From: Rubrivivax sp.
GTDB lineage: Bacteria > Pseudomonadota > Gammaproteobacteria > Burkholderiales > Burkholderiaceae_C
Reading direction: 5' to 3'
Length of the DNA stretch: 64,000 nucleotides
Assembly: GCA_027487905.1 (NCBI GenBank)
Contig: JAIYCR010000033.1
Span: forward strand, 1-64,000
Below, one piece after another: positions 8,586 through 20,397 of this stretch. Both the position numbers and the translations under genes were made by a program. How positions within the stretch are numbered: position 1 is the first letter of the stretch; every line of letters begins with the position of its first letter. The notes beneath the pieces were generated by a model. It did no database searches and was not told where the DNA came from. It saw only the letters and a program-made list of their open reading frames with translations.

Positions 8586-9581
8586 ATGCACACCTTCCGC
8601 TCACTGCTTCTGGGCGCCGCGCTCGTGCTGGCCGGCCAGGCCCACGCAGCCACCACCACCTTCAACCTGTCGACGCCCGATCCCGACAACGCCGAGATCA
8701 CCGTGGCCGCTCGCAAGTTCGCTGAGCTGGTGACGGCCAAGACCGGCGGGCAAGTCGAGGTGAAGGTGTTCCCGAGCGGTCAGCTTTATGGCGGTGACCC
8801 CTCCGCAGCCGTTCGCCAGCTGTCCGGCGGCTCGCTGGACATGCTGCTGCTGTCCTCGTCGCTGTACGCGAACTTCAACCCGAAGTTCACCGCTGTCTCG
8901 GTGCCTTACCTGTTCGACGACACCGCGCAGCTGCGCGGCTACCTGGCCGGGCCGCTCGGCCAGGAGCTGCTGTCCGACCTGAATGCCATCGGCATCCGCG
9001 GACTGGGCCTGTGGCAGCGGCCGTTTCGCCAGATGACCAACTCGCGGCGCCCGATTACCGGTCCGCAGGATCTGGCGGGCATGAAGTTCCGGGTGCCCAA
9101 CAACCCGCTGTGGGTGGACTTCTTCGGCAAGGCCGGTGCCGTGCCCACACCCATGGCCTTCGGCGAGGTCTACAACGCGCTGCAGCTGAAGGTGGTCGAT
9201 GGCCAGGAGAACCCGATCAACATCCCCGTGACGGCCAAGTTCTACGAAGTCCAGAAGTTCGCGACGCTGTCCAACCACATGGCCGACGCCTGGGTGCTGG
9301 GCATCAACCCGGCCAAGTTCAATGCGCTTCCCGAGGCGCAGAAGCAGGCCCTGCAGGCCGCCGCGACCGAGGCCGAGGCCTGGAAGTTCGCCAACGACAG
9401 TGCGGACCATGCCAAGTCGGTGGAGTTCCTCAAGGGCAAGGGCATGCAGATCAACACGCTCACCCCCGAGCAGCAGCAGAGCTTCGTCAAGCTCTCGCGG
9501 GAGTTGTACCCGCGATTCGCAACCTTGGTGAAGGACGCCGCCTTCTTCGACAAGACGCTGAACAGCGTCGGCAAGAAGTAG
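8586..9581 (+). CDS. dctP: TRAP transporter periplasmic substrate-binding protein (DctP family)
   Basis: 331 residues. A signal peptide ends near AHA-AT (about residue 22). Family blocks: ELVTAKTGGQVEVKVFPSGQ, a GMKFRVPNNPLW segment carrying the conserved carboxylate-binding Arg, and GEVYNALQLKVVDGQENP. It captures a carboxylate in the periplasm and delivers it to the DctQ/DctM permease encoded next. GGAG lies about 8 nt before the ATG. The substrate is unknown: the gluconokinase three genes on suggests a gluconate-like sugar acid. It is the first gene of a four-gene rightward operon, divergent from the LysR gene. Confidence 0.93.
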   Translation: MHTFRSLLLGAALVLAGQAHAATTTFNLSTPDPDNAEITVAARKFAELVTAKTGGQVEVKVFPSGQLYGGDPSAAVRQLSGGSLDMLLLSSSLYANFNPKFTAVSVPYLFDDTAQLRGYLAGPLGQELLSDLNAIGIRGLGLWQRPFRQMTNSRRPITGPQDLAGMKFRVPNNPLWVDFFGKAGAVPTPMAFGEVYNALQLKVVDGQENPINIPVTAKFYEVQKFATLSNHMADAWVLGINPAKFNALPEAQKQALQAAATEAEAWKFANDSADHAKSVEFLKGKGMQINTLTPEQQQSFVKLSRELYPRFATLVKDAAFFDKTLNSVGKK

Positions 9582-9589
9582 GCCGCTGA

Positions 9590-10189
9590 GTGACCAGCCT
9601 GATGCCGTCGCACCGGGTGGCGCCTTCGCCGGCGCAAGCTCCCGGCCCCGCGCCCTCGTCCATTCCCCACGTCCTCCCAATGAACGCCGACACCTGCACG
9701 CCAGCCCCAGCGGCCTGGCCCTCCCGGGTCATGGAGTGGGTGCTGCGCCTGAGCATGGCCGGCATCGTGCTCGTAGTGCTGCTTCAGATCGCTGGCCGGC
9801 TGGGTGGTCGCCCCTTTCCCTGGACCGAGGAGCTGACGCGCGCACTCTTCATCTGGATGGTGTTCATCGGCATGGCGGCCAGCATGCGTCGAGCCGATGC
9901 GGCCCGCGTGACGGTGGTGCTGCAGTGGCTGAAGCGCCCCATCCGGCGTCTGGCCCTGCCCGTCTACGCGGTGGCCTGCATCGGCTTCTTCTCGCTGATG
10001 GGCTGGACCGGCATCGGCATGGTCCGCCAGCAGGTGATGATGAACGAGACCATCGCGACGCTCGGCTGGCCGAGCTGGGTCATCGGGGCGGTGATCCCGG
10101 TGTCGGCGCTGGTGGCCATCGTCTGCACGCTGGCGTCGCTTCGCGACAGCGGTGCCGTCATTGCCGGCGAAGAGGAGGGCGCGCCATGA
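9590..10189 (+). CDS. dctQ: TRAP transporter small permease (DctQ family)
   Basis: 199 residues from GTG at 9590; ATG at 9602 or 9680 are alternatives, the last giving 169 residues, a more typical DctQ length. Four hydrophobic segments are seen, at about residues 50-70, 85-105, 128-145 and 160-180, with the DctQ-like block FPWTEELTRALFIWMVFIG. The first ~45 residues are Pro/Ala-rich and may be untranslated. The 3' end overlaps dctM by 4 nt (ATGA), so translation is coupled. Confidence 0.85.
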   Translation: MTSLMPSHRVAPSPAQAPGPAPSSIPHVLPMNADTCTPAPAAWPSRVMEWVLRLSMAGIVLVVLLQIAGRLGGRPFPWTEELTRALFIWMVFIGMAASMRRADAARVTVVLQWLKRPIRRLALPVYAVACIGFFSLMGWTGIGMVRQQVMMNETIATLGWPSWVIGAVIPVSALVAIVCTLASLRDSGAVIAGEEEGAP

Positions 10190-11466
10190 GCATCACCCTG
10201 CTGCTGGTCTTCCTGGCGCTGGCCGCGCTGGGCGTGCCCCTGGCCATCGGGCTGGGGCTTGCGAGCGTGTGCGCCATCGTTATGTTCAGCTCCACGCCGG
10301 TCAGCGTGTTGTCCGAGAGCATGTTCTCGGCGATGAATTCCTTCCTGCTCGTGGCGGTGCCCTTGTTCCTGCTGGTGGGCCAGCTGATGGAGCGCGGCGG
10401 CGTGGCCGACCGCATCTTCGATTTCGCCCATGCGGCAGTGGGCTGGCTGCCCGGCGGCATGGGGCATGTGAACGTCGCCTCGTCGGTCGTGTTCGGCGGC
10501 ATCTCCGGGTCGTCCGTGGCCGACATCGCCTCGCTGGGCGCGGTGGAGATCAACGCCATGGTCAAGCATGGCTATGACAAGGGCTATGCGGTGGGCATGA
10601 CGCTGGCGACGTCGACGCTGTCGTCCATCATCCCGCCCTCCATCCTGATGGTGCTGGCGGGCTCAATCGCGAGCCAGTCCATCGGCTTGCTGCTCATCGG
10701 CGGCCTGGTGCCAGGCCTGTTCATCGCTGCCATGCTGATGGCCTACAACCACCTCTACAGCGTGCGCCGTGGCGTGGCGCCGCCGACGCCCTTCGTCATG
10801 GCCCGGCTGCTTCGCGCGGGCCTGCGGGCGATCCTGCCGATGCTGACCCCGGTCATCCTGATGGTGGGCATCCTCGACGGGTTCTTCACGCCCACCGAAG
10901 CCGCCGTGATCGCGGTGGTCTACACCGCGGTCATCGCTGGGGTGTTCTACCGCACGATCAAGCTGCCGGACATCGGACCGATGCTGTCGGAGACCGCCCG
11001 CACCGCGGGCAACATCCTCTTCATCGCCGCCACCGCCAAGCTGGCGGCCTGGGTGTTCGCCTTCGACGGCCTGCCGGTCAAGGTGGCCGAGGGCCTGTCG
11101 GTGCTGACCTCAAGCCCCACCGTGGTGATGCTGCTGATCTTCCTGTTCCTGATCGTGGTGGGCATGTTCATGGATGCCATCGCGGCCATGTTCATCCTGA
11201 TCCCGGTGCTGCTGCCGCCCGCCGTGTCGCTGGGCGTGGACCCCATCCACATGCTGGTGGTGATGGTCATCACGCTGACGCTCGGGCTGGTGACGCCGCC
11301 GGTGGGGGTATGCCTCTTCGCCGTGTCCAAGGTCTCGGGGCTGAGCATCGAGCAGGTGGTGCGCGGCTCCACCGGGCCGGTGTCCATCCTGGTGGTGGCC
11401 ATCCTGGCGCTGGTGCTGTTTCCGGCGCTGGTGATCGGGCCGCTGAAGCTGCTCGGCCTTTACTGA
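10186..11466 (+). CDS. dctM: TRAP transporter large permease (DctM family)
   Basis: 426 residues, about 11-12 hydrophobic segments, the usual DctM length. Characteristic blocks: GVPLAIGLGLASV, FGGISGSSVADIASLGAVEI, the IIPPSILMVLAG turn, DGFFTPTEAAVIAVVYT and LGLVTPPVGVCLF. It forms the ion-driven transport channel with DctQ, using a sodium gradient in characterised relatives. The ATGA overlap with dctQ supports one transporter unit. Confidence 0.93.
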   Translation: MSITLLLVFLALAALGVPLAIGLGLASVCAIVMFSSTPVSVLSESMFSAMNSFLLVAVPLFLLVGQLMERGGVADRIFDFAHAAVGWLPGGMGHVNVASSVVFGGISGSSVADIASLGAVEINAMVKHGYDKGYAVGMTLATSTLSSIIPPSILMVLAGSIASQSIGLLLIGGLVPGLFIAAMLMAYNHLYSVRRGVAPPTPFVMARLLRAGLRAILPMLTPVILMVGILDGFFTPTEAAVIAVVYTAVIAGVFYRTIKLPDIGPMLSETARTAGNILFIAATAKLAAWVFAFDGLPVKVAEGLSVLTSSPTVVMLLIFLFLIVVGMFMDAIAAMFILIPVLLPPAVSLGVDPIHMLVVMVITLTLGLVTPPVGVCLFAVSKVSGLSIEQVVRGSTGPVSILVVAILALVLFPALVIGPLKLLGLY

Positions 11467-11487
11467 AGCGTGGATGGCGCGGTGAAC

Positions 11488-12009
11488 ATGAAGCTGGTCG
11501 TGATGGGCGTGGCGGGTTGCGGCAAGTCGAGCCTCGCTGCTGCCTTCGCCCGCGCCGGGGGCCTGTCGATGGTCGAGGGCGACGCCTTCCACAGCGCCGC
11601 GAGCGTGGACAAGATGCGCGGCGGCATCGCCCTCACCGATGAAGACCGTGCAGAGTGGCTGGTCCGTCTGGGGGCGGAGCTGGGCTCGCGCGACGAAAGT
11701 GTCGTGCTCACCTGCTCGGCGCTTCGCCGCAGCTACCGCGACCGCCTGCGAGCCGCCTCACCGGGGCTGCAGTTCGCCTACCTCGAGATCGACCCGGCTA
11801 CTGCCCTCTCCAGGGTGATGTCCAGGGAGTCGGAGCACTTCTTCTCTCCGGGGCTGGTGGACAGCCAGTTCGCCGCGCTCGAGCCCCCAGTCGGGGAAGA
11901 CGGCGTGCTGCGCCTGCAGGCCACCCAACCGCTGGCCGAGCTGCTGGTGCAGCTGCGGGCGTGGTGCGACTTGAAGGGAGTGGCACTGCAGAGTGCTCGG
12001 GGCGATTGA
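11488..12009 (+). CDS. gntK: Gluconokinase (GntK family)
   Basis: 173 residues. P-loop MGVAGCGKSS, then EGDAFHSAASVDKMRGGIAL, DEDRAEWL, LTCSALRRSYRDRLR and EHFFSPGLVDSQFAALEPP: the full set of bacterial GntK motifs. It phosphorylates gluconate (or a closely similar sugar acid) to the 6-phosphate with ATP. ATG at 11488 is used; an in-frame GTG at 11470 is possible. The 21-bp gap to dctM places it in the TRAP operon, suggesting that the imported compound, or one derived from it, is the kinase substrate. Confidence 0.9.
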   Translation: MKLVVMGVAGCGKSSLAAAFARAGGLSMVEGDAFHSAASVDKMRGGIALTDEDRAEWLVRLGAELGSRDESVVLTCSALRRSYRDRLRAASPGLQFAYLEIDPATALSRVMSRESEHFFSPGLVDSQFAALEPPVGEDGVLRLQATQPLAELLVQLRAWCDLKGVALQSARGD

Positions 12010-12066
12010 GTGGTGGGGGGTGAACGGCGCGCGTGCGGTCTTGGCGGTGGTGACCCCCCGACCCGC

Positions 12067-13278
12067 TCAGGTGAACGACCTCAGCGCCTTCCCCGGATCG
12101 CAGGCGTCGGCCGGCTGCGGATGCCGGCCAAGCTCGATCAGCCTGCGTGCGGCCATGTGATCGACCGGTGCGTTCACGCTCTCGACACACACGAGGCGAT
12201 TGCCCTCGTAATGCAGCAGCGAGAAGCTGGACGGACCCGCGCCGGGGCGTCGGTGGGTCACGGCGCTGGGATCCAGCAGACCGACCATCTGCAGCCGTAG
12301 AGCCCCCTGCTCGGACCAGAACCAGGGTACTGGCCTGTAGTCCAGCTCGCCGCCCAGGATCGAGGATGCTGCCACCCGGGCCTGGTCGTTGGCGTTCTGC
12401 ACCGACTCAAGCCGAATGCGCGCCTCGCGTCGGACCCAGGGGAATGCCGCCACATCGCCGATGGCAAGGATTCTTGGATCGCTTGTGCGCATCCGAGCGT
12501 CGACCTCAATGCCGTTGCCGCAGACAAGCCCCGCCTGCTGGGCCAACGCCTGCGCCGGGATGGCCCCCATGCCCAGCACGAGCAGTTCCACCGGCTCCAG
12601 TCGCCCGTCGGTCTCGACCGCGGTCACCCGCCCGCCGGCGACCGTGAAGCCACGGGCGGCTTCCCCCAATCGCACGTCGATGCCAGCAGCGCGGTGCACC
12701 TGCAGCACGTGCTCGGACAGCGTCGCGGACACCGATCGCATCAGCAGTCTCGGCGCGGCTTCGAGCACCGTGACCGCCTTGCCGAGCATCCGTGCAGTGG
12801 CCGCCACCTCCAGACCGATGAAGCCGCCTCCCAGCACGGTCACCGACGATGCGGCCACGAGCTGCTCGCGCAAGGACCGCGCATCGGCCGCCGTGCGCAG
12901 CACCGCCACATTGGCGATCCCGGGGGCCAGCGCCGCCGGCCGGCGCGGCTCGGCGCCGGGGGCCAGCACCAGCCAGTCGTACGGCAGGTCACCCCCCGAC
13001 GTCAGCCGCACCCGACTCCGGACCCGGTCGATCGACGTCACCGCATCACCCAGGTGCAACGTGATGCCGGACTGTTCGAACCAGCCGGCCGCACGGTGGA
13101 GCGAGGCGACTTCCCCGTCCTGCTTCAGGAACGATTTCGACAGCGGCGGCCGCTGATAGGGCAGCTCGGGCTCGGCGCACACCAGATGAATGCGGGTGCC
13201 CTGCCCTGCGTCCACCAGCGCGGCACACAGCTGGACGCCGGCGTGCCCCCCGCCGACGATGACGATGGGTCCGTCCAT
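12067..13278 (-). CDS. FAD-dependent ferredoxin reductase for the P450 system
   Basis: 403 residues. FAD-binding GxGxxG as IVIVGGGHAGVQ at residue 6, the PYQRPPLSKSFL block, NAD-binding VTVLGGGFIGLEVAA near 150 with TVLEAAPR, and ILAIGDVAAF near 270. This is the putidaredoxin-reductase/palustrisredoxin-reductase class that moves electrons from NADH to a [2Fe-2S] ferredoxin. It is the last gene of the operon, 8 bp after the MarR gene, which is unusual in separating reductase from ferredoxin. Partner assignment is by context. Confidence 0.9.
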   Translation of the reverse strand: MDGPIVIVGGGHAGVQLCAALVDAGQGTRIHLVCAEPELPYQRPPLSKSFLKQDGEVASLHRAAGWFEQSGITLHLGDAVTSIDRVRSRVRLTSGGDLPYDWLVLAPGAEPRRPAALAPGIANVAVLRTAADARSLREQLVAASSVTVLGGGFIGLEVAATARMLGKAVTVLEAAPRLLMRSVSATLSEHVLQVHRAAGIDVRLGEAARGFTVAGGRVTAVETDGRLEPVELLVLGMGAIPAQALAQQAGLVCGNGIEVDARMRTSDPRILAIGDVAAFPWVRREARIRLESVQNANDQARVAASSILGGELDYRPVPWFWSEQGALRLQMVGLLDPSAVTHRRPGAGPSSFSLLHYEGNRLVCVESVNAPVDHMAARRLIELGRHPQPADACDPGKALRSFT

Positions 13279-13286
13279 GTCGGACT

Positions 13287-13862
13287 TCAGACGGGCTCGT
13301 CGGCCGCAGCACCCCGGGCGCGCCGACGGCGACCCGCAGGCAGGTGCTGCACGACGTAGTCGGCAGTGGCCGTCTCGACCGCGGGCAGGTTCTCGTGCAG
13401 CCTGCGCAGCAAGCCGATCAGCGTCTCACGCTCGCGGTCGTCCAGCACCGACAGGAAGGCGGCTTCGCGAGCGAGTGCCACGCCGCGGATCTTGTCGTGC
13501 AGCGCCCGGCCCTTGCGGGTGAGCGTGGCCATGCGCACGCGCCCGTCGCTCGCATCCAGCGTCACGGCGATCAGGCCCTTGGCCTGCATGCTCTTGAAAC
13601 AGCGGCTGACCGACGCCTTGTCCATGCCGATCACGCGCGACACCTGCTGTGCGGAGATCGATCCCTGGATGGCGAGAAGCACCAGGCACCGCCAGGTCTC
13701 GATGCCGACGTCGAACAACTCCAGGTAGGCCTGCGAAGCCCCGCGGGAGAGCTTGTTGGCAATCCAGGTCAGGAAGCCCGGGACATAGCGTTCAAGGTCA
13801 ATGACGCCGGAGTCCGGCACGGGTGCTTCGTCCTCGGGATCGGCGGCTGCCGTGGCAATCAC
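13287..13862 (-). CDS. MarR-family transcriptional regulator
   Basis: 191 residues from GTG at 13862. The stop of the ferredoxin gene overlaps this start (GTGA), and GGAGAG lies 6 nt upstream; ATG at 13925 would run 67 bp into the ferredoxin gene. The winged helix-turn-helix is clear: SISAQQVSRVIGMDKASVSRCFKSMQAKGLI, then the wing DASDGRVRMATLTRKGRAL. MarR proteins sensing aromatic acids or their CoA esters (e.g. CouR) repress transport and catabolic operons. This one is embedded in the operon it probably controls and may be autoregulated. Confidence 0.88.
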   Translation of the reverse strand: MIATAAADPEDEAPVPDSGVIDLERYVPGFLTWIANKLSRGASQAYLELFDVGIETWRCLVLLAIQGSISAQQVSRVIGMDKASVSRCFKSMQAKGLIAVTLDASDGRVRMATLTRKGRALHDKIRGVALAREAAFLSVLDDRERETLIGLLRRLHENLPAVETATADYVVQHLPAGRRRRARGAAADEPV

Positions 13863-14182
13863 TGCTGGCTCTCCGGCAGTTGCACGGTCAGCCCGTCGAG
13901 GTCGGCGCGGAGCTTGATCTGGCATGACAGGCGGCTGGTGGGTCGACGCTCGCTGGACGTGCACTCGAGCATTTCCAGCTCGTTGGCCAGCGGCGGCGCG
14001 AGTTTGCCAGCCCAGGCCGGGTCGACGTAAACGTGGCAGGTGGCGCACATGGCCGATCCGCCGCATTCGGCCACGATGCTTCGTACGCCGGCACCGGTGG
14101 CGACCTGCATCAGCGACACGCCGACCGGTGCCTCCAGTCGCTGGAGCTTGCCATCGGGGTGCATCAAGACGATTTCGAGCAT
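13859..14182 (-). CDS. [2Fe-2S] ferredoxin, P450 redox partner
   Basis: 107 residues from ATG at 14182. Cluster ligands follow the adrenodoxin/putidaredoxin pattern C-X5-C-X2-C...C: ECGGSAMCATCHVYV near residues 40-54 and LSCQIKL near 88. It carries single electrons from the reductase to the P450 encoded 30 bp upstream in the operon. Similar proteins (palustrisredoxin, HaPux) serve CYP199A enzymes. It overlaps the MarR gene by 4 nt. Confidence 0.9.
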   Translation of the reverse strand: MLEIVLMHPDGKLQRLEAPVGVSLMQVATGAGVRSIVAECGGSAMCATCHVYVDPAWAGKLAPPLANELEMLECTSSERRPTSRLSCQIKLRADLDGLTVQLPESQQ

Positions 14183-14212
14183 GGTCGGGTGCAAGGGGAT
14201 TTCAGGCGGAAG

Positions 14213-15415
14213 TCACGCCGGTGTGAGGCGCAATGGCAAGGTGTCCAGTGCGCGCAACGTGTTGTTGAGACGTCGGGTGTGCGGACCGGTCGGTTCGATG
14301 CGGGCGACGCGCCGCGCGATGACCGAGAGGATGAGTTCGCCTTCGAGGCGTGCCACCGCCTGACCGACGCAACCATGGATGCCCGAGCCAAGCGCCATGT
14401 GACCAGTGGGACGGCGCTCGATGTCGTAGCGGTCAGGGTCGGGCCATTTGCGTGGGTCACGGTTCGCTGCAGCCAGCATGCACAGCACCTTGGTGTCCTC
14501 GGCCACCGCGTGGCCCGCGATCGTGGTGTCGCGCGCGGCGGTGCGGAAGAAGGTCTGGGCGGTGGACTCCCAGCGCAGCGCCTCCTCGAAGGCCGGGCGC
14601 GCGAGCGTCGGGTCGGCGCGCAGTTTCGCGTACTGGTCTGGGTTCTGCGCCAGCGCAAACAGCGCATTGCCCAGGCCGTTGATCGTGGTGTCGACTCCGG
14701 CCGACAGGAATGACCTCACCAGCATCGGCGCCTGCTCGTGGGTGATCTCGCCGGCGTCGGCGGCCTGCCAGATCTGGTCGCCGAAGCCACCGGGGCGCAG
14801 GTGTTCGCGCTGGCAGTGCGCCATGATCCAGGCGGTGACCGATGCGAACCGGGCGGCGCTCTTCTCGAACAAGGCGTTGCGAGGCCCCATCGAGTTGAAC
14901 ACCATGTCGCCGTAGACCAGCAGGTTCTCGCGACCGTCGTCGCCTACGCCCACTGCGTCCGGGAAGACCTTGAGCGGATAGCGCTGGGCGAGGTCACCGA
15001 TGCCGTCGATCGTGCCCTGCTGCACGCAGGCGTCCACCAGCCGCTCGGCCTCTGCGGCGAACACCGGCCGGATCTGCTGCATGACCTTGGGGCTCAGGAT
15101 GCGCGAGAGCACTGCCCGTGTGGTGGTGTGCAGCGGCGGATCCGCTTCCAGGATGAGGCTGCGAGGACGGAACGGCGTCTCGCGGTTGAAGTTCGCGAGG
15201 CCCACGCCCGCGCCCGAGATGAAGGTGTCGTGATCGTTGAGCACCGCATGCACCTGTTCGTGACGCGCGCAGGCCACCAGCGTCGGGTAGCCCGCCAGCC
15301 GCACCACGGGTCCGGCCTCGCGCATGCGTTCGTGCATCGGATACGGGTCGGTCAGGTTCTCCGGTGCGTAGGGATCGACGCCCAGAACCGGGATGTCGAC
15401 GACAGGATCAGCCAT
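14213..15415 (-). CDS. Cytochrome P450, CYP199A-like (para-substituted benzoate oxidase)
   Basis: 400 residues. I-helix SAGVDTTING, ExxR as EALRWES, and heme ligand loop ALGSGIHGCVGQAVARLEGE. From memory of CYP199A4, the match is close throughout: RPRSLILEADPPLHT, YPLKVFPDAVG, VFNSMGPRN, LVRSFLSAGVDTT and the end NNTLRALDTLPLRLTPA. The Arg and Ser of RPxS and the RS before the I helix, which hold the substrate carboxylate in CYP199A4, are kept. CYP199A enzymes O-demethylate 4-methoxybenzoate and oxidise related acids, so this one probably makes a 4-hydroxybenzoate-type acid plus formaldehyde. GAGGAG precedes the ATG. It lies between the ABC importer genes and its ferredoxin. Confidence 0.9.
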   Translation of the reverse strand: MADPVVDIPVLGVDPYAPENLTDPYPMHERMREAGPVVRLAGYPTLVACARHEQVHAVLNDHDTFISGAGVGLANFNRETPFRPRSLILEADPPLHTTTRAVLSRILSPKVMQQIRPVFAAEAERLVDACVQQGTIDGIGDLAQRYPLKVFPDAVGVGDDGRENLLVYGDMVFNSMGPRNALFEKSAARFASVTAWIMAHCQREHLRPGGFGDQIWQAADAGEITHEQAPMLVRSFLSAGVDTTINGLGNALFALAQNPDQYAKLRADPTLARPAFEEALRWESTAQTFFRTAARDTTIAGHAVAEDTKVLCMLAAANRDPRKWPDPDRYDIERRPTGHMALGSGIHGCVGQAVARLEGELILSVIARRVARIEPTGPHTRRLNNTLRALDTLPLRLTPA

Positions 15416-15463
15416 GGCGGCTCCTCGGGAAGGCAGTGGGGAATGGGGTGCTGGTGTCGCGCG

Positions 15464-16168
15464 TCAGTGCACCGCGACGCCGACCAGGCGTTCGAGAGTC
15501 GCGTGGTCGTTCGCGAGCGCAGTGGCATCGTCTTCGTGCGCGACCGTGCCGCGCTCGAGAACAACGGCACGGTCGGCGTAGCCCAGGGCCTCCTGCACCT
15601 GCTGCTCCACGATGACGACGGTCATGCCCTGGATGCGCCGGAAGGCGACGAGGAGTTCCCCTCGGATCAGCGGTGCCAGACCCTCCAGCGGCTCGTCGAG
15701 CAGCAGCAGGCGGGGCTGGCCCAGCAGCGCCCGCGCCACCGACAGCATCTGCTGCTCGCCGCCGGACAACTGCATGCCGCCATTGCGGCGCCGCTCGGCC
15801 AGGCGCGGGAAGAGCGCGTACGCTTCTTCGACGGCGGAGCGGGGGCGCCCCTTGAGCCCGGCGACCAGGTTCTCCTCGACGGTGAGCGACGGAAAGACGT
15901 CGCGGGTCTGCGGCACGTAGCCGATCCCCAGATGGGCCCGCTCGTGCGGCTGCAGCCGCGCCAGGTCTCGGCCGTCGAACCGGATGGTGCCTGCGCGCAT
16001 CGATGCCAGACCCATCACCGCGCGCAGCATCGTGGTCTTGCCGACACCGTTGCGGCCGATCACCGCCAGCCGGTCGCCGGTCCTGACCTGCAGGTCCAGG
16101 CGATCGAGCACGGTGACCGGGCCGTATCCCGCAACGACACCCGACAGGGTCAGCAACGCGTCGGCCAT
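15464..16168 (-). CDS. livF: Branched-chain-type ABC transporter ATPase (LivF-like)
   Basis: 234 residues. Walker A IGRNGVGKTT, signature LSGGEQQML, Walker B LLLLDEPLEGLAP, and the H-loop replaced: VVIVEQQVQEAL is the usual LivF form with Gln. It energises import with LivG across the inner membrane. It is followed after 48 bp by the P450 gene, which suggests the cargo is the P450 substrate rather than an amino acid. Confidence 0.9.
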   Translation of the reverse strand: MADALLTLSGVVAGYGPVTVLDRLDLQVRTGDRLAVIGRNGVGKTTMLRAVMGLASMRAGTIRFDGRDLARLQPHERAHLGIGYVPQTRDVFPSLTVEENLVAGLKGRPRSAVEEAYALFPRLAERRRNGGMQLSGGEQQMLSVARALLGQPRLLLLDEPLEGLAPLIRGELLVAFRRIQGMTVVIVEQQVQEALGYADRAVVLERGTVAHEDDATALANDHATLERLVGVAVH

Positions 16169-16170
16169 GG

Positions 16171-16908
16171 TCAGTGCCCCAGGTAGGCCGCGCGCACGCG
16201 GTCGTCGCGTCGGATGGCGTCCGGCGGGCCATCGGCGAGCACGGCCCCCTCGGCGAGCACGACGATGCGGCGTGCGAAGCGGAACACCAGGTCCATGTCG
16301 TGCTCGATCAGCAGCACCGCGAGCTGCGCCGGCAGTGCATCGAGCGCGGACAGCAGCCGCTCGCCGTCGCCCTTGGGCACGCCCGCCATCGGCTCGTCCA
16401 GCAGCAGCACCGACGGCTTGAGCGCGAGGGCCAGCGCCATCTCGACCAGTCGCTGCTCGCCGTAGGCCAGTTGCTGCGTCGGCGTGGCGGCCACCGCACC
16501 CAAGCCCAGCGAGCCGAGGATGAAGCGGGCCTCGTCGGAGAGGGCCGGATAGCCGTCGATCGACCGCCAGGCCCGGCCAGTGAGGCCTTCGCGCTCGAAG
16601 AGCGCGAGCTCCACCTGGCGCTGCAACGGCAGGTGCTGCGCGAGCGTCGTGATCTGGAAGGTGCGGGCCAGCCCAGCACGCACCCGCTGCGCCTGGTCGA
16701 GCCGGGTGATGTCCCGGCTGCCCAGGTGGATGGTCCCGGCCGACGGGGCGAGCGCACCGCTGATCAGGTTGATCAACGTCGTCTTGCCCGCGCCGTTGGG
16801 GCCGATCAGGGCCAGGCGGTCGCCCGGCTGCAGGGCGAGCGAGACGTCGCGCGTGACGTGCAATCCGCCGAAGCGCTTGTCCAGGCGTTCGATGCGCAGC
16901 GCGGTCAT
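16171..16908 (-). CDS. livG: Branched-chain-type ABC transporter ATPase (LivG-like)
   Basis: 245 residues from ATG at 16908, which overlaps the LivM stop by 4 nt. Walker A IGPNGAGKTTLINL, Walker B VLLLDEPMAGV, H-loop LLIEHDMDLVF. The signature is LAYGEQRLVEMA, as in LivG proteins. Second ATPase of the HAAT-type importer, 2 bp from the LivF start. Confidence 0.9.
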   Translation of the reverse strand: MTALRIERLDKRFGGLHVTRDVSLALQPGDRLALIGPNGAGKTTLINLISGALAPSAGTIHLGSRDITRLDQAQRVRAGLARTFQITTLAQHLPLQRQVELALFEREGLTGRAWRSIDGYPALSDEARFILGSLGLGAVAATPTQQLAYGEQRLVEMALALALKPSVLLLDEPMAGVPKGDGERLLSALDALPAQLAVLLIEHDMDLVFRFARRIVVLAEGAVLADGPPDAIRRDDRVRAAYLGH

Positions 16909-17909
16909 GAACGCCCCCGTGCCGCCAGCGCGGGCACGCGGCCGCGCAGCCAGGCCCATGCCTTGCCGGGCGGCAGCAGCACGACGGCCATCAGCGCACC
17001 GCCCACCACGAACAGCCAGTGGTAGGGGTTGATGGACGAGGCCGTGTGATGCAACAGGGTGAACACCAGCGCGCCGACGAGGGCGCCGTGGAGCCGCCCC
17101 GCGCCGCCCAGCACCAGCATCACCAGCAGCTCGGCCGACAGCGCGAACGACAGGCTGTCGAGACCGACGATGGCGTTCGTCTGCGCCGACAACGCGCCCG
17201 CCGCGCCAGCCAGTGCGCCGGCCAGGGTGTAGACCGCCAGCAGGCGCGCGATGACAGGCGTGCCGAGGGCTGCCATGCGTGCCCTGTTCTCGTGGATGCC
17301 GCGCACCGCAAGGCCGAACGGCGAGTCCACCACACGGCGGGCGACGTAGTAGCCGATCACCAGCACGATGAGCGCGTACAGGGCTCCGGTGCGACCGAAC
17401 AGGTCAAACTCGAAGCGCCCCAGAAGCGGCGCCATCGTGAATCCCGACAGCCCGTCGTCGCCGCCGGTGATGCCGCGGAAGGTGTGTGCCAGTTGCAGCA
17501 CGATCTGGCCCACGGCGACCGTGAGCATCAGGAAGCTGAAGCCTTGGTAGCGCAGCAGGAAGGCACCCGACGCGAGCGCCGTCACGGCGCCTGTGCCGAT
17601 GGCGGCGACCATGCCCACCAGCGGGTCGGCCGTGACGCGCAGCGCCAGGATGCCCGCGGTGTAGGCCCCCACGCCGAAGAGCGCGGCATGGCCGAGCGTG
17701 GGGAGACCGGCGACACCCACCACCAGGTCCAGCGACAGGACCAGCAGCATCATGATCGCGATTCGGGTCAGCAGGCCGAGTTGGTCGGGCAGCAGCCACC
17801 AGGCTACGAGGCCCGCGACGAGCAGCACCAGCGGGGCCCGCCAGGCGGGTGCACATCGCGGCGCGCTGGCGACATCGCCGAGCCGGTTGGCGGCAGGATC
17901 GAGACTCAT
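16905..17909 (-). CDS. livM: Branched-chain-type ABC transporter permease (LivM-like)
   Basis: 334 residues, around nine to ten hydrophobic segments. LivM blocks: LDLVVGVAGLPTLGHAALFGVGAYTAG near residue 65, RYQGFSFLMLTVAVGQIV, and VRGIHENRARMAALG, the cytoplasmic loop that contacts the ATPases. Start ATG 17909 overlaps the LivH stop (ATGA), and the stop overlaps livG, so three transporter genes are coupled. Confidence 0.9.
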   Translation of the reverse strand: MSLDPAANRLGDVASAPRCAPAWRAPLVLLVAGLVAWWLLPDQLGLLTRIAIMMLLVLSLDLVVGVAGLPTLGHAALFGVGAYTAGILALRVTADPLVGMVAAIGTGAVTALASGAFLLRYQGFSFLMLTVAVGQIVLQLAHTFRGITGGDDGLSGFTMAPLLGRFEFDLFGRTGALYALIVLVIGYYVARRVVDSPFGLAVRGIHENRARMAALGTPVIARLLAVYTLAGALAGAAGALSAQTNAIVGLDSLSFALSAELLVMLVLGGAGRLHGALVGALVFTLLHHTASSINPYHWLFVVGGALMAVVLLPPGKAWAWLRGRVPALAARGRS

Positions 17910-18763
17910 CGGCGAAGCAGTCCATTGGGACGCCAGGCGAGCAGCACCGCCATGGCGACGAAGAAGGGCAGACTTCCCCAGCCGGAGGCCAGGTACTTGC
18001 TCGCTGTCTCGACCGTACCCAGCAGAACTGCCGCAGCCAGTGAGCCGCCGATGCTGCCCATGCCGCCCACCGCCACCACCACGAGCACCAGCACCAGGTA
18101 CTTCAGCGCGTAGTAGGGCTCCAGCGGCATCAACTCGGCACCGAGTACGCCGCCAAGGCCTGCCAGGCCGGCACCCACGGCGAAGCTCAGGCACTGCACG
18201 CGGCGGATCGGTATGCCGAGGGTGCCCGCGGTGTCGGGGTTGTCGACCGCCGCCCGAAGCCAGACGCCAAACCGTGTCCGACCGACGACCCAAGTCGCTG
18301 CGATGGCAACGGCGACGCCCGCGCCAATGACGAGCAGCCGCTGCGCCGGCAGCGTGCGAAAGCCCAGGTCCACCGGCTGCACGAGCGACGGCGGCAGCGG
18401 GATCAGCTGCACCTGTGGCCCGGCGATCGCGTTGATGCTCGCGATCAGAAAGAAGCTCAGCCCGATGGTGAATAGCACCTGCTCGAGCTCTGGTCGGCGG
18501 TACAGGTGGCGCAGCACCAGCGCCTCCAGCGCCGCGCCCAGCGCAGCCACCGCCAGCACGCCCGCCACCAGTGCGGCGGCGAAGTGCAGGCCGGCCTCCC
18601 TCGCGAGCCAGGCGGTGGCATACCCGCCGATCATCGCGAACGCCCCGTGGGCGAGGTTCACGAAACGCATGAGCCCGAGCGTGACCGACATGCCCACGGC
18701 GATCACGAACAGCACCATGCCGTAGGCCAGGCCGTCGATCGCGATGTTGGCGAGCAGCTGCAT
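17906..18763 (-). CDS. livH: Branched-chain-type ABC transporter permease (LivH-like)
   Basis: 285 residues with eight or so hydrophobic segments. LivH blocks: VGMSVTLGLMRFVNLAHGAFAMIGGY near residue 25 and TAGTLGIPIRRVQCLSFAVGAGLAGLGG near 180. It pairs with LivM. It follows the binding-protein gene after 38 bp. Confidence 0.9.
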   Translation of the reverse strand: MQLLANIAIDGLAYGMVLFVIAVGMSVTLGLMRFVNLAHGAFAMIGGYATAWLAREAGLHFAAALVAGVLAVAALGAALEALVLRHLYRRPELEQVLFTIGLSFFLIASINAIAGPQVQLIPLPPSLVQPVDLGFRTLPAQRLLVIGAGVAVAIAATWVVGRTRFGVWLRAAVDNPDTAGTLGIPIRRVQCLSFAVGAGLAGLGGVLGAELMPLEPYYALKYLVLVLVVVAVGGMGSIGGSLAAAVLLGTVETASKYLASGWGSLPFFVAMAVLLAWRPNGLLRR

Positions 18764-18801
18764 TGGCCGGTCCGTGGATGAAGGGGCTCTGGCTGGGCGG
18801 C

Positions 18802-19980
18802 TTACTTCACGTCGAAGCCGTGATCGGTCTGCTGACCGAAGTTCTGCACCTCGCGGTTGACCAGCAGGCCACCCGCGCGCTCCACTTTGCGCAGGTAGAC
18901 GTTCTGGGTCATGTGGCGCGTGCGTGGGTCAATGCTGACCGGCCCCCGCGGGCTTTCCCACTGCAGGCCCTTGGCAGCGACGATCGCCTTGGCGCCGTCG
19001 CGCTGGCCGCCGGTGGCCTCGATCATCTTGTGGATCACGAACATTCCGTCCCACGCGCCGACGGTGGCGTAGTTGACGATGCCTTGCGGATCGCGCTTGC
19101 GCACGGCGTCGACGAAGGTCTTGTTGGCGGGCGAATCGCGGGCGCCGCTGTAGTGGAAGGCGGTGGTCAGACCGAGGGCACCGTCGCCGAACTTCTGCAG
19201 GTCGAACTCATCGGTCTCGGCGGTGCCAAGGAACTCGATGCCGGCCTGGCGCAGGCCATTCTCGTTGTAGGCCTTGACGAAGCCGAGGTTGGGCGGACCG
19301 CCTGGCAGGAAGGTGTAGACCGCTTGCGCGCCCGAGGCCTTGATGCGCTGCACGAACGGGCCGAAGTCGGTGGTGCCGATCGGCATGCGGATGCTCTCGA
19401 CCACCGTGCCGCCCTGCCTGGCGAACTCGGCCTTGAAGGCGTTCTCGCCGTCGATGCCCGGGCCGTAGTCAGTGACGGCCGTCACCACGCGGCGGATGTT
19501 CTGCTTGGCCGCCCACTGCGCCAGCGGCACTGTCACCTGCCACAGCGTGTAGGAGGTGCGGATGCAGTATTCGCACTTCTCGGTGATGCTGGAGGTCGCG
19601 GCATTGAAGATCACCGTCGGTGTCTTGGACTGGTCGGCCAGCGGCGCGGCCGCGAGCGCATTGGGCGTGAAGACGAAGCCACCGAGGTAGTCCACCTTCT
19701 CGCGCACGATGAGCTCCTGCACGAGCGTGCGGGTCTGCGCCGGGTTGGGACCGCCCGTGTCACGGTAGACGAACTCGATGTCACGCCCGGCCAGCTTGCC
19801 TCCTTGAGACGCCACGTAGGCTTCTGCCCCGTTGCGGAACAGCGTTCCGTAGTGGGCAAAGGGCCCCGAGAACGGGCCCACGATGCCGACCTTGATCGTC
19901 TGCGCCACGACCGGTGTCGCGACGGTGAAGGCCATGGCGGTTCCAGCTGCCAGGGCGGCGAAGCGTGCTGTCAAGTTCAT
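18802..19980 (-). CDS. ABC transporter substrate-binding protein, aromatic-acid type (Peripla_BP_6)
   Basis: 392 residues. Signal peptide ends near VVA-QT (residue 27). Type I periplasmic-binding fold with VGIVGPFSGPFAHYG at the start of the mature protein. A CEYC pair at about residue 138 may form a disulfide, followed by IRTSYTLWQ. RBS GGAGA sits 7 nt before the ATG. First gene of the P450 operon. Liv-type systems bind amino acids, urea, or aromatic acids (for example the coumarate-binding CouP); the P450/ferredoxin genes behind it favour an aromatic acid. Ligand is inferred. Confidence 0.88.
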   Translation of the reverse strand: MNLTARFAALAAGTAMAFTVATPVVAQTIKVGIVGPFSGPFAHYGTLFRNGAEAYVASQGGKLAGRDIEFVYRDTGGPNPAQTRTLVQELIVREKVDYLGGFVFTPNALAAAPLADQSKTPTVIFNAATSSITEKCEYCIRTSYTLWQVTVPLAQWAAKQNIRRVVTAVTDYGPGIDGENAFKAEFARQGGTVVESIRMPIGTTDFGPFVQRIKASGAQAVYTFLPGGPPNLGFVKAYNENGLRQAGIEFLGTAETDEFDLQKFGDGALGLTTAFHYSGARDSPANKTFVDAVRKRDPQGIVNYATVGAWDGMFVIHKMIEATGGQRDGAKAIVAAKGLQWESPRGPVSIDPRTRHMTQNVYLRKVERAGGLLVNREVQNFGQQTDHGFDVK

Positions 19981-20035
19981 CGGTCGTCTCCGGGTTGCCG
20001 TCTCTGTGCTTTGGACGGTCTGTCAGGGTCGCCGG

Positions 20036-20065
20036 ATGATCAAGCCCACGTGGTTGAGTTGTCAA
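20036..20065 (-). promoter_or_regulatory. Candidate sigma-70 promoter of the ABC/P450 operon
   Basis: On the minus strand TTGACA (20065-20060) is a perfect -35 box; after 18 bp comes GATCAT (20041-20036), a 4/6 match to the -10 consensus. It would start transcription about 50 nt upstream of the ATG at 19980. The -35 box lies inside one of the two dyads described separately. Confidence 0.5.
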
Positions 20066-20083
20066 CTGGTTGGCATGCCAACC
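20053..20083. promoter_or_regulatory. Paired dyads, probable MarR operators
   Basis: Two TTG-N6-CAA dyads lie next to each other: 20054-20065 (within GTTGA-GTTG-TCAAC) and 20070-20081 (within the perfect 16-bp palindrome GGTTGGCATGCCAACC, 20068-20083). Centres are 16 bp apart. The first covers the -35 box of the predicted promoter, so occupancy would block polymerase. The MarR protein of the same operon is the natural candidate binder. Confidence 0.6.
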
Positions 20084-20321
20084 GTAGTCGGTGCTTTCCC
20101 TCCCCGGTGGGCCAGTGCTTGCTGCGGATCTCGGACTTCGCCTCGGGCTCGCGGTGATGGATCAGGACGTGCGAATGCACGCACGCACGCACCCGCTCGG
20201 GATGCGACGCCTGCACGGCGGCTTCTGCCGCGAGCGACAAAGCAAAACGCCCCGGCGAGCGTGACGTCTGGTGCTTCAACAGGCGCTGCGATGCGCTGGC
20301 CTGTCTTTTCCTGGTTGTTTC
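20084..20321. other. Intergenic stretch without recognised gene
   Basis: Together with 19981-20083 this makes a 341-bp gap between the ABC operon and tRNA-Thr. Beyond the promoter and dyads I see no credible coding region, hairpin with T-run, or insertion sequence end here. Confidence 0.6.
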
Positions 20322-20397
20322 TGGTGCCGGTGAGAGGAGTCGAACCCCCGACCTTCGCATTACGAATGCGCTGCTCTACCAACTGAGCTACACCGGC
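20322..20397 (-). tRNA. thrT: tRNA-Thr (CGT anticodon)
   Basis: Read on the minus strand, GCCGGTG pairs with CACCGGC as the acceptor stem, with D loop AGCTCAGTTGGTAGAGC, anticodon loop TTCGTAA (anticodon CGT, reading ACG) and T loop GGTTCGACTCC. The discriminator A is at 20325 and CCA is encoded at 20324-20322. 76 nt with CCA. No integrase gene lies nearby. Confidence 0.97.

Follow-up and report, generated by a model that had tools for sequence, protein, structure and literature searches.

The 64-kb window analysed here (the whole stretch of 64,000 nucleotides, lying on contig 34 of a 4.35-Mb Rubrivivax draft genome, 98.5% complete) carries nine minus-strand genes at 12067-19980. They form a block of about 8 kb in the order substrate-binding protein (SBP), LivH, LivM, LivG, LivF, cytochrome P450, [2Fe-2S] ferredoxin, MarR-family regulator and ferredoxin reductase. 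In our judgement the chances are about three in four that this operon is a catabolic unit for para-methoxylated benzoates, importing and demethylating them under the control of MarR. The gene content, conservation, residues, operator and genome partners are computational findings; the substrate, the direction of regulation, the inducer and the single transcript are inferred.

In the proposed mechanism, the SBP would capture the acid, probably lignin-derived 4-methoxybenzoate (p-anisate) together with related para-substituted benzoates, and the LivHMGF ATP-binding cassette (ABC) transporter would bring it into the cell. Electrons would pass from NADH to the reductase, thence to the [2Fe-2S] ferredoxin and finally to the P450, whose Arg/Ser set would hold the carboxylate during removal of the 4-O-methyl group to give 4-hydroxybenzoate and formaldehyde. 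PobA, whose gene lies outside the operon in another part of the genome, would convert the former to protocatechuate and a glutathione-dependent pathway would clear the latter. The operon-encoded MarR would repress through the sequence GTTGA-N4-TCAAC, positioned over the -35 box, until released by an aromatic ligand.

A sequence-only reading of this DNA had proposed a self-contained unit for uptake, demethylation and sensing of para-methoxylated aromatic acids. The unit itself finds computational support in the carboxylate-binding residues of the P450, an SBP of RPA0985/RPB_2270 type, co-occurrence with PobA, pobA-pobR/ligAB synteny in Comamonas, adjacent formaldehyde-detoxification genes and a conserved operator. 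As to the substrate, the lineage of the SBP favours benzoates and disfavours cinnamates.

CYP199A P450s are well-studied biocatalysts, yet we came across few open-literature accounts of how their substrate is imported and their genes are switched on. The operon supplies a matching importer, native ferredoxin and reductase, and a putative repressor with its predicted 14-bp site, all within the one block, and suggests a biosensor. The reaction concerned, O-demethylation, has been described as both critical and rate-limiting for the valorisation of lignin (PMC11530827).

P450, binding protein and likely substrate

The nearest solved structures to the P450 are 2fr7 (CYP199A2) and 4dnz (CYP199A4); the protein matches CYP199A4 at 216 of 394 positions (54.8% identity). 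By convention, P450s sharing more than 55% identity are placed in the same subfamily; membership of family CYP199 is clear, and subfamily A would be an assignment made at the 55% line. The alignment equates R83, S86, R234, S235, S238, D242, T243 and C349 of the window P450 with R92, S95, R243, S244, S247, D251, T252 and C358 of CYP199A4. The heme-ligating Cys (C349) and the acid-alcohol pair (D242, T243) are thus present, and the Arg/Ser set that binds the benzoate carboxylate (R83, S86, R234, S235) is complete. The residues kept from CYP199A4 also include, in the numbering of that enzyme, S247, A248, D251, T252, F182, F298 and C358. The Arg/Ser set hardly varies among 82 P450s compared. The ferredoxin and reductase are closest among solved structures to 4ltu and 3fg2, respectively, which we take to be HaPux and PuR, both of Rhodopseudomonas palustris. 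For comparison, PbdA, which O-demethylates 4-methoxybenzoate and veratrate, binds the carboxylate through R84, S87, R236 and S237 (PMC11530827).

As expected of a Liv/HAAT importer, an SBP, two permeases and two ATPases are encoded together. The SBP is closest among solved structures to 4evs (54% identity over 366 positions, E 2.8e-132) and 4f06, then to 4ey3; a gene for the 4f06 protein is present in R. palustris HaA2. We take 4evs to be RPA0985 and these solved proteins to be 4-hydroxybenzoate binders. RPA0985 is stabilised by 4-hydroxybenzoate, its melting point rising by 29.5 °C (PMC3223731). The relationship supports the SBP as a putative benzoate binder of RPA0985/RPB_2270 type; benzoate would be a more likely ligand than cinnamate, because the protein groups with the one-carboxyl benzoate binders and not with CouP. 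An importer for branched-chain amino acids or urea was considered and rejected: all five subunits fall below the curated LivK-F and UrtA-E equivalog cut-offs, and the nearest solved SBPs bind aromatic acids.

O-demethylation of 4-methoxybenzoate needs both PobA and removal of formaldehyde. The partners were recognised with curated models: TIGR02360, scored over its cut-off, for PobA; TIGR02818 for FrmA (S-(hydroxymethyl)glutathione dehydrogenase); and TIGR02821 for FrmB (S-formylglutathione hydrolase). PobA is encoded in 24/24 operon-bearing genomes, the window's own included, compared with 37/300 genomes drawn from the order. FrmA flanks 8 of the 48 importer loci, where about 0.16 would be expected (from 1.5 copies per 5 Mb), and FrmB flanks 4; in the window's own genome FrmA is present on another contig. 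VanA-like Rieske oxygenases occur in five flanks. The clusters of flanking genes formed by tripartite tricarboxylate receptors, and by the GTPase and major facilitator superfamily neighbours of Pusillimonas and relatives, were uninformative.

Two Comamonas, strain SCN 65-56 and C. badia (loci L023 and L024), tie the operon to the subsequent steps: it is bordered there by pobA-pobR (TIGR02360, TIGR02431) on one side and by protocatechuate 4,5-cleavage genes on the other. LigK, LigA and LigB are recognised there by curated models, and an amidohydrolase, a relative of lactone hydrolases and a dehydrogenase fit the rest of the 4,5-cleavage route. Since the operon stands beside the next pathway genes, the whole route is testable in one cultured strain; cultured carriers of the operon include C. 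badia DSM 17552 and Ottowia thiooxydans DSM 14619.

A separate arrangement involving pobA is found on contig 52 of the window's own genome (100347-104425, L133), where another P450, with 31% identity to that of the window, comes after pobA in the same orientation, and an IclR-type regulator is divergent from pobA.

Predicted operator and conservation of the operon

The MarR protein has a winged-helix MarR domain (PF12802, PF01047), and upstream of the SBP gene lies a candidate site for it, an exact copy of the palindrome GTTGA-N4-TCAAC (Table 1). This copy is the sole match at no more than one mismatch in the window. Scored out of 10 positions, the best match reaches 9 or 10 in 42 of 44 SBP upstream regions, compared with 1.6% of controls, for which 300-base segments were drawn at random from these loci. 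Among the 44 regions, the operator was not found upstream of the SBP in locus L015, nor upstream of the Chromohalobacter SBP. Across orthologues the sites are often in tandem, 16 bp being by far the commonest spacing. The conserved palindrome overlaps the predicted operon promoter, as would be looked for where a MarR protein represses the catabolism of aromatics; TTGACA of the operator is the predicted -35 box, an arrangement consistent with a repressor that keeps RNA polymerase off the promoter. The operon's own MarR is presumably the protein that binds GTTGA-N4-TCAAC.

The window's own genome, searched by family and by pattern, contains exactly two perfect copies of the operator, one upstream of this operon and the other upstream of a second CYP199 gene; ten other carrier genomes have from one to four copies each. 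The second gene belongs to a cluster on contig 67 (30732-33079; L109 10733-13079) that encodes a CYP199-like P450 with 58% identity to that of the window, a ferredoxin and a MarR (46%). A LigXa-like Rieske oxygenase gene diverges from this cluster, and coenzyme A (CoA)-transferase-like genes are close by. Cross-talk between its MarR and that of the window operon is possible.

When GTDB genomes were searched using the P450 as query, 219 relatives were obtained, of which the best 80 loci were analysed. All nine genes are present in 40/80, in 38 of them co-oriented, and several of the other loci are cut by contig ends; the check proposed earlier, a search for the same gene order in other genomes, thus proved positive. 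Conservation on this scale rules out chance adjacency of the nine genes. The block is found mainly in Burkholderiales, and also in marine Alphaproteobacteria. Gene order is nearly fixed, with MarR and reductase swapped in some loci. In one Azohydromonas locus (L022) MarR is divergent from the SBP, and in Chromohalobacter (L081) an importer-MarR arm is divergent from a P450-ferredoxin-reductase arm, with two exact operator copies between the importer and P450 arms.

In the P450 tree, importer linkage is seen in 39/49 rows of the Burkholderiales clade, several of the remainder being truncated, in 4/5 rows from Paracoccus, Oceanicola, Poseidonocella and Hoeflea, and in Chromohalobacter. This spread is compatible with a single origin followed by losses and equally with repeated transfer. 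CYP199-like genes at E<=1e-100 are rare in the order, occurring in 4/399 sampled genomes. We lean, with less assurance than for the function of the operon itself, towards a self-contained module conserved in beta-, alpha- and gammaproteobacteria, where one MarR repressor and one palindromic operator would govern both a dedicated ABC importer and a full class I P450 system. The second CYP199 gene of the window's genome would come under the same operator, so that two operons would make up a P450 regulon directed at methoxylated benzoates.

Two further features of the related loci were noted. Azohydromonas australica DSM 1124 has two importer-P450 blocks on different contigs (L022, L075). Most Bradyrhizobium and related CYP199 loci (L053-L064) have a reductase directly after the P450; no ferredoxin was recognised in them using the window's ferredoxin as query, and it may be of another kind.

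Operon layout and competing explanations

All nine gene families were assigned by Pfam/NCBIfam models (Table 1). From SBP to reductase, the first two genes are 38 bp apart, the next two junctions are 4-bp overlaps, and gaps of 2, 48 and 30 bp come after them; the ferredoxin and MarR genes then overlap by 4 bp, and 8 bp separate MarR from the reductase. The gene calls therefore bear out the earlier description of nine leftward genes with overlaps or gaps under 50 bp, the largest being 48 bp. The range then given, 13287-20083, was too short: it omitted the reductase (12067-13278), which belongs to the block. A scan of 11900-20300 found the promoter upstream of the SBP as the only promoter-like site and no minus-strand terminator-like site inside the nine-gene block.

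Table 1. Coordinates of the operon genes and of the predicted regulatory sites in the window
Feature	Position	Strand	Remarks
Second, weaker operator copy (predicted), GTTGGCATGCCAAC	20069-20082	-	8/10 match; tandem, 16 bp upstream of exact copy
Predicted MarR operator, GTTGACAACTCAAC	20053-20066	-	Exact GTTGA-N4-TCAAC; overlaps -35 box
Predicted sigma-70 promoter, TTGACA-18-GATCAT	20036-20065	-	-35 box within operator
SBP, periplasmic (Peripla_BP_6); probable benzoate-type ligand	18802-19980	-	PF13458, 240 bits; best solved relatives 4evs, 4f06
LivH-type permease	17906-18763	-	PF02653
LivM-type permease	16905-17909	-	PF02653; start overlaps LivH stop by 4 bp
LivG-type ATPase	16171-16908	-	PF00005 + PF12399; start overlaps LivM stop by 4 bp
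LivF-type ATPase	15464-16168	-	PF00005; UrtE/LivF-like
CYP199-family cytochrome P450	14213-15415	-	54.8% identity to CYP199A4
[2Fe-2S] ferredoxin, putidaredoxin type	13859-14182	-	PF00111; best solved relative 4ltu
MarR-family regulator	13287-13862	-	PF12802, PF01047; Protein Data Bank relatives; GTG start overlaps ferredoxin stop by 4 bp
FAD ferredoxin reductase	12067-13278	-	PF07992 + PF14759; best solved relative 3fg2

Upstream of the operon is a tRNA-Thr gene (20322-20397), and downstream a plus-strand open reading frame (11470-12009) is convergent with the operon end. On the plus strand at 8586-12009, genes resembling those of a TRAP transporter (for a binding protein and for the small and large permeases) precede the 11470-12009 frame, which is gluconokinase-like; these were named by eye.

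Several observations weigh against the proposed function. The -10 box of the predicted promoter is a weak match, and the 48-bp gap between LivF and P450 leaves room for a second transcription start. Eight other genomes of the same family in the 300-genome sample also have PobA, so that its association with the operon is partly a matter of ancestry, and FrmA also flanks 2/32 importer-less CYP199 loci. In the P450 pocket the changes F185M and V295A (CYP199A4 numbering) could shift preference to other para-substituents; among the 82 P450s, Met185 and Ala295 are typical of most of the window P450's subclade. Finally, the solved relatives of the SBP bind 4-hydroxybenzoate (PMC3223731), and the importer may prefer the product of the P450 over its substrate.

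The last point would be accommodated if the importer served hydroxylated benzoates broadly (4-hydroxybenzoate, vanillate, protocatechuate), the P450 being a side branch linked to it through shared induction by lignin aromatics and not through a shared substrate. The HaA2 genome, in which an SBP of the same type and its Liv genes adjoin a Rieske oxygenase away from CYP199A4, is consistent with this; however, importer and P450 stay linked in lineages that are far apart, and in Chromohalobacter the two arms flank the pair of exact operator copies, so that we consider the explanation doubtful, if worth keeping in view. The pocket changes raise a different question, whether the main task might be hydroxylation of para-alkylbenzoates (4-methyl-, 4-ethyl-, 4-isopropylbenzoate) instead of O-demethylation. 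CYP199A4 and PbdA hydroxylate or desaturate 4-ethylbenzoate, and Phe185, replaced in the window subclade, has a role (PMC11530827). Yet formaldehyde-detoxification genes recur beside the operon, as fits demethylation, the pobA synteny calls for a 4-hydroxybenzoate product, and F185/V295 are kept in most operon P450s outside the subclade, which together make the alkylbenzoate substrates unlikely.

That the importer genes and the P450 genes are transcribed as two units that happen to be neighbours might be argued from the 48-bp gap and from the divergent arms in Chromohalobacter; we judge this quite improbable given the single promoter-like site, the absence of an internal minus-strand terminator in the scanned region and the presence of the same operator between those divergent arms. 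A substrate such as 4-methoxycinnamate or another phenylpropenoid, for which the only argument is the earlier comparison with CouPSTW/CouR, we regard as very improbable indeed: the SBP belongs with RPA0985-type one-carboxyl binders and not with CouP, which gave no response to 4-hydroxybenzoate (PMC3610893), the operon is without a CoA ligase or hydratase, and the CYP199A carboxylate-binding set is kept.

Comparison with known systems

No description of such an operon was found in the open-access literature, most subscription papers being outside that scope, and to this extent the earlier remark that an importer-P450 operon had not been described holds; it has to be qualified in that the CYP199A4 gene of R. 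palustris HaA2 has an SBP gene, of another lineage, just downstream. The CYP199A4 system resembles that of the window in P450 family, in ferredoxin type and in having MarR and SBP genes nearby. The locus, identified by a 100% match, has the order CYP199A4-ferredoxin-SBP, and differs in several respects: MarR is divergent, the SBP is of a different lineage (26% identity), and the operon is without LivHMGF, the Liv genes further on having their own SBP and running in the opposite direction. No reductase gene was seen in the 20-kb HaA2 stretch around CYP199A4. GTTGA-N4-TCAAC was searched for in the CYP199A4 promoter and not found, and the motif is therefore not general to all CYP199A loci. HaA2 (L108 6171-9623) and nine near relatives (L092-L101) share the different-lineage SBP gene after CYP199A4-ferredoxin and the divergent MarR, apparently a second tie between CYP199 and a binding protein that is independent of the window's.

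PbdA-PbdB of Rhodococcus jostii RHA1 likewise comprises a CYP199A P450 for 4-methoxybenzoate and veratrate with the same carboxylate set, but a single partner reductase replaces the ferredoxin and reductase, and a transporter or MarR gene is nowhere mentioned in the text of that paper (PMC11530827). CouPSTU/CouR of R. palustris shares with the window an ABC importer for lignin aromatics and a MarR regulator, and differs in its phenylpropenoid ligands, its CoA-thioester pathway and inducer, and the lack of a P450 (PMC3610893). The analogy drawn earlier with CouPSTW/CouR is apt as regards an importer accompanied by MarR; it is otherwise loose, because CouR responds to p-coumaroyl-CoA and the operon has no CoA ligase.

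The importer itself is nearest to that of the RPA0985/RPB_2270 SBPs (PMC3223731), which are the closest to the window SBP, the HaA2 LivH and LivF being 49% and 55% identical, respectively. In HaA2 (L127 4623-13227) a Rieske oxygenase gene and one resembling glutamine synthetase precede the RPB_2270-type SBP and Liv genes, an IclR-like regulator is divergent and no P450 is linked to them; this is a different pathway using the same type of importer. The parts of the window operon are thus of known kinds, and provisionally it is their conserved, co-regulated combination that is new. Since both halves exist apart in R. palustris, the combination found in the window is a distinct arrangement.

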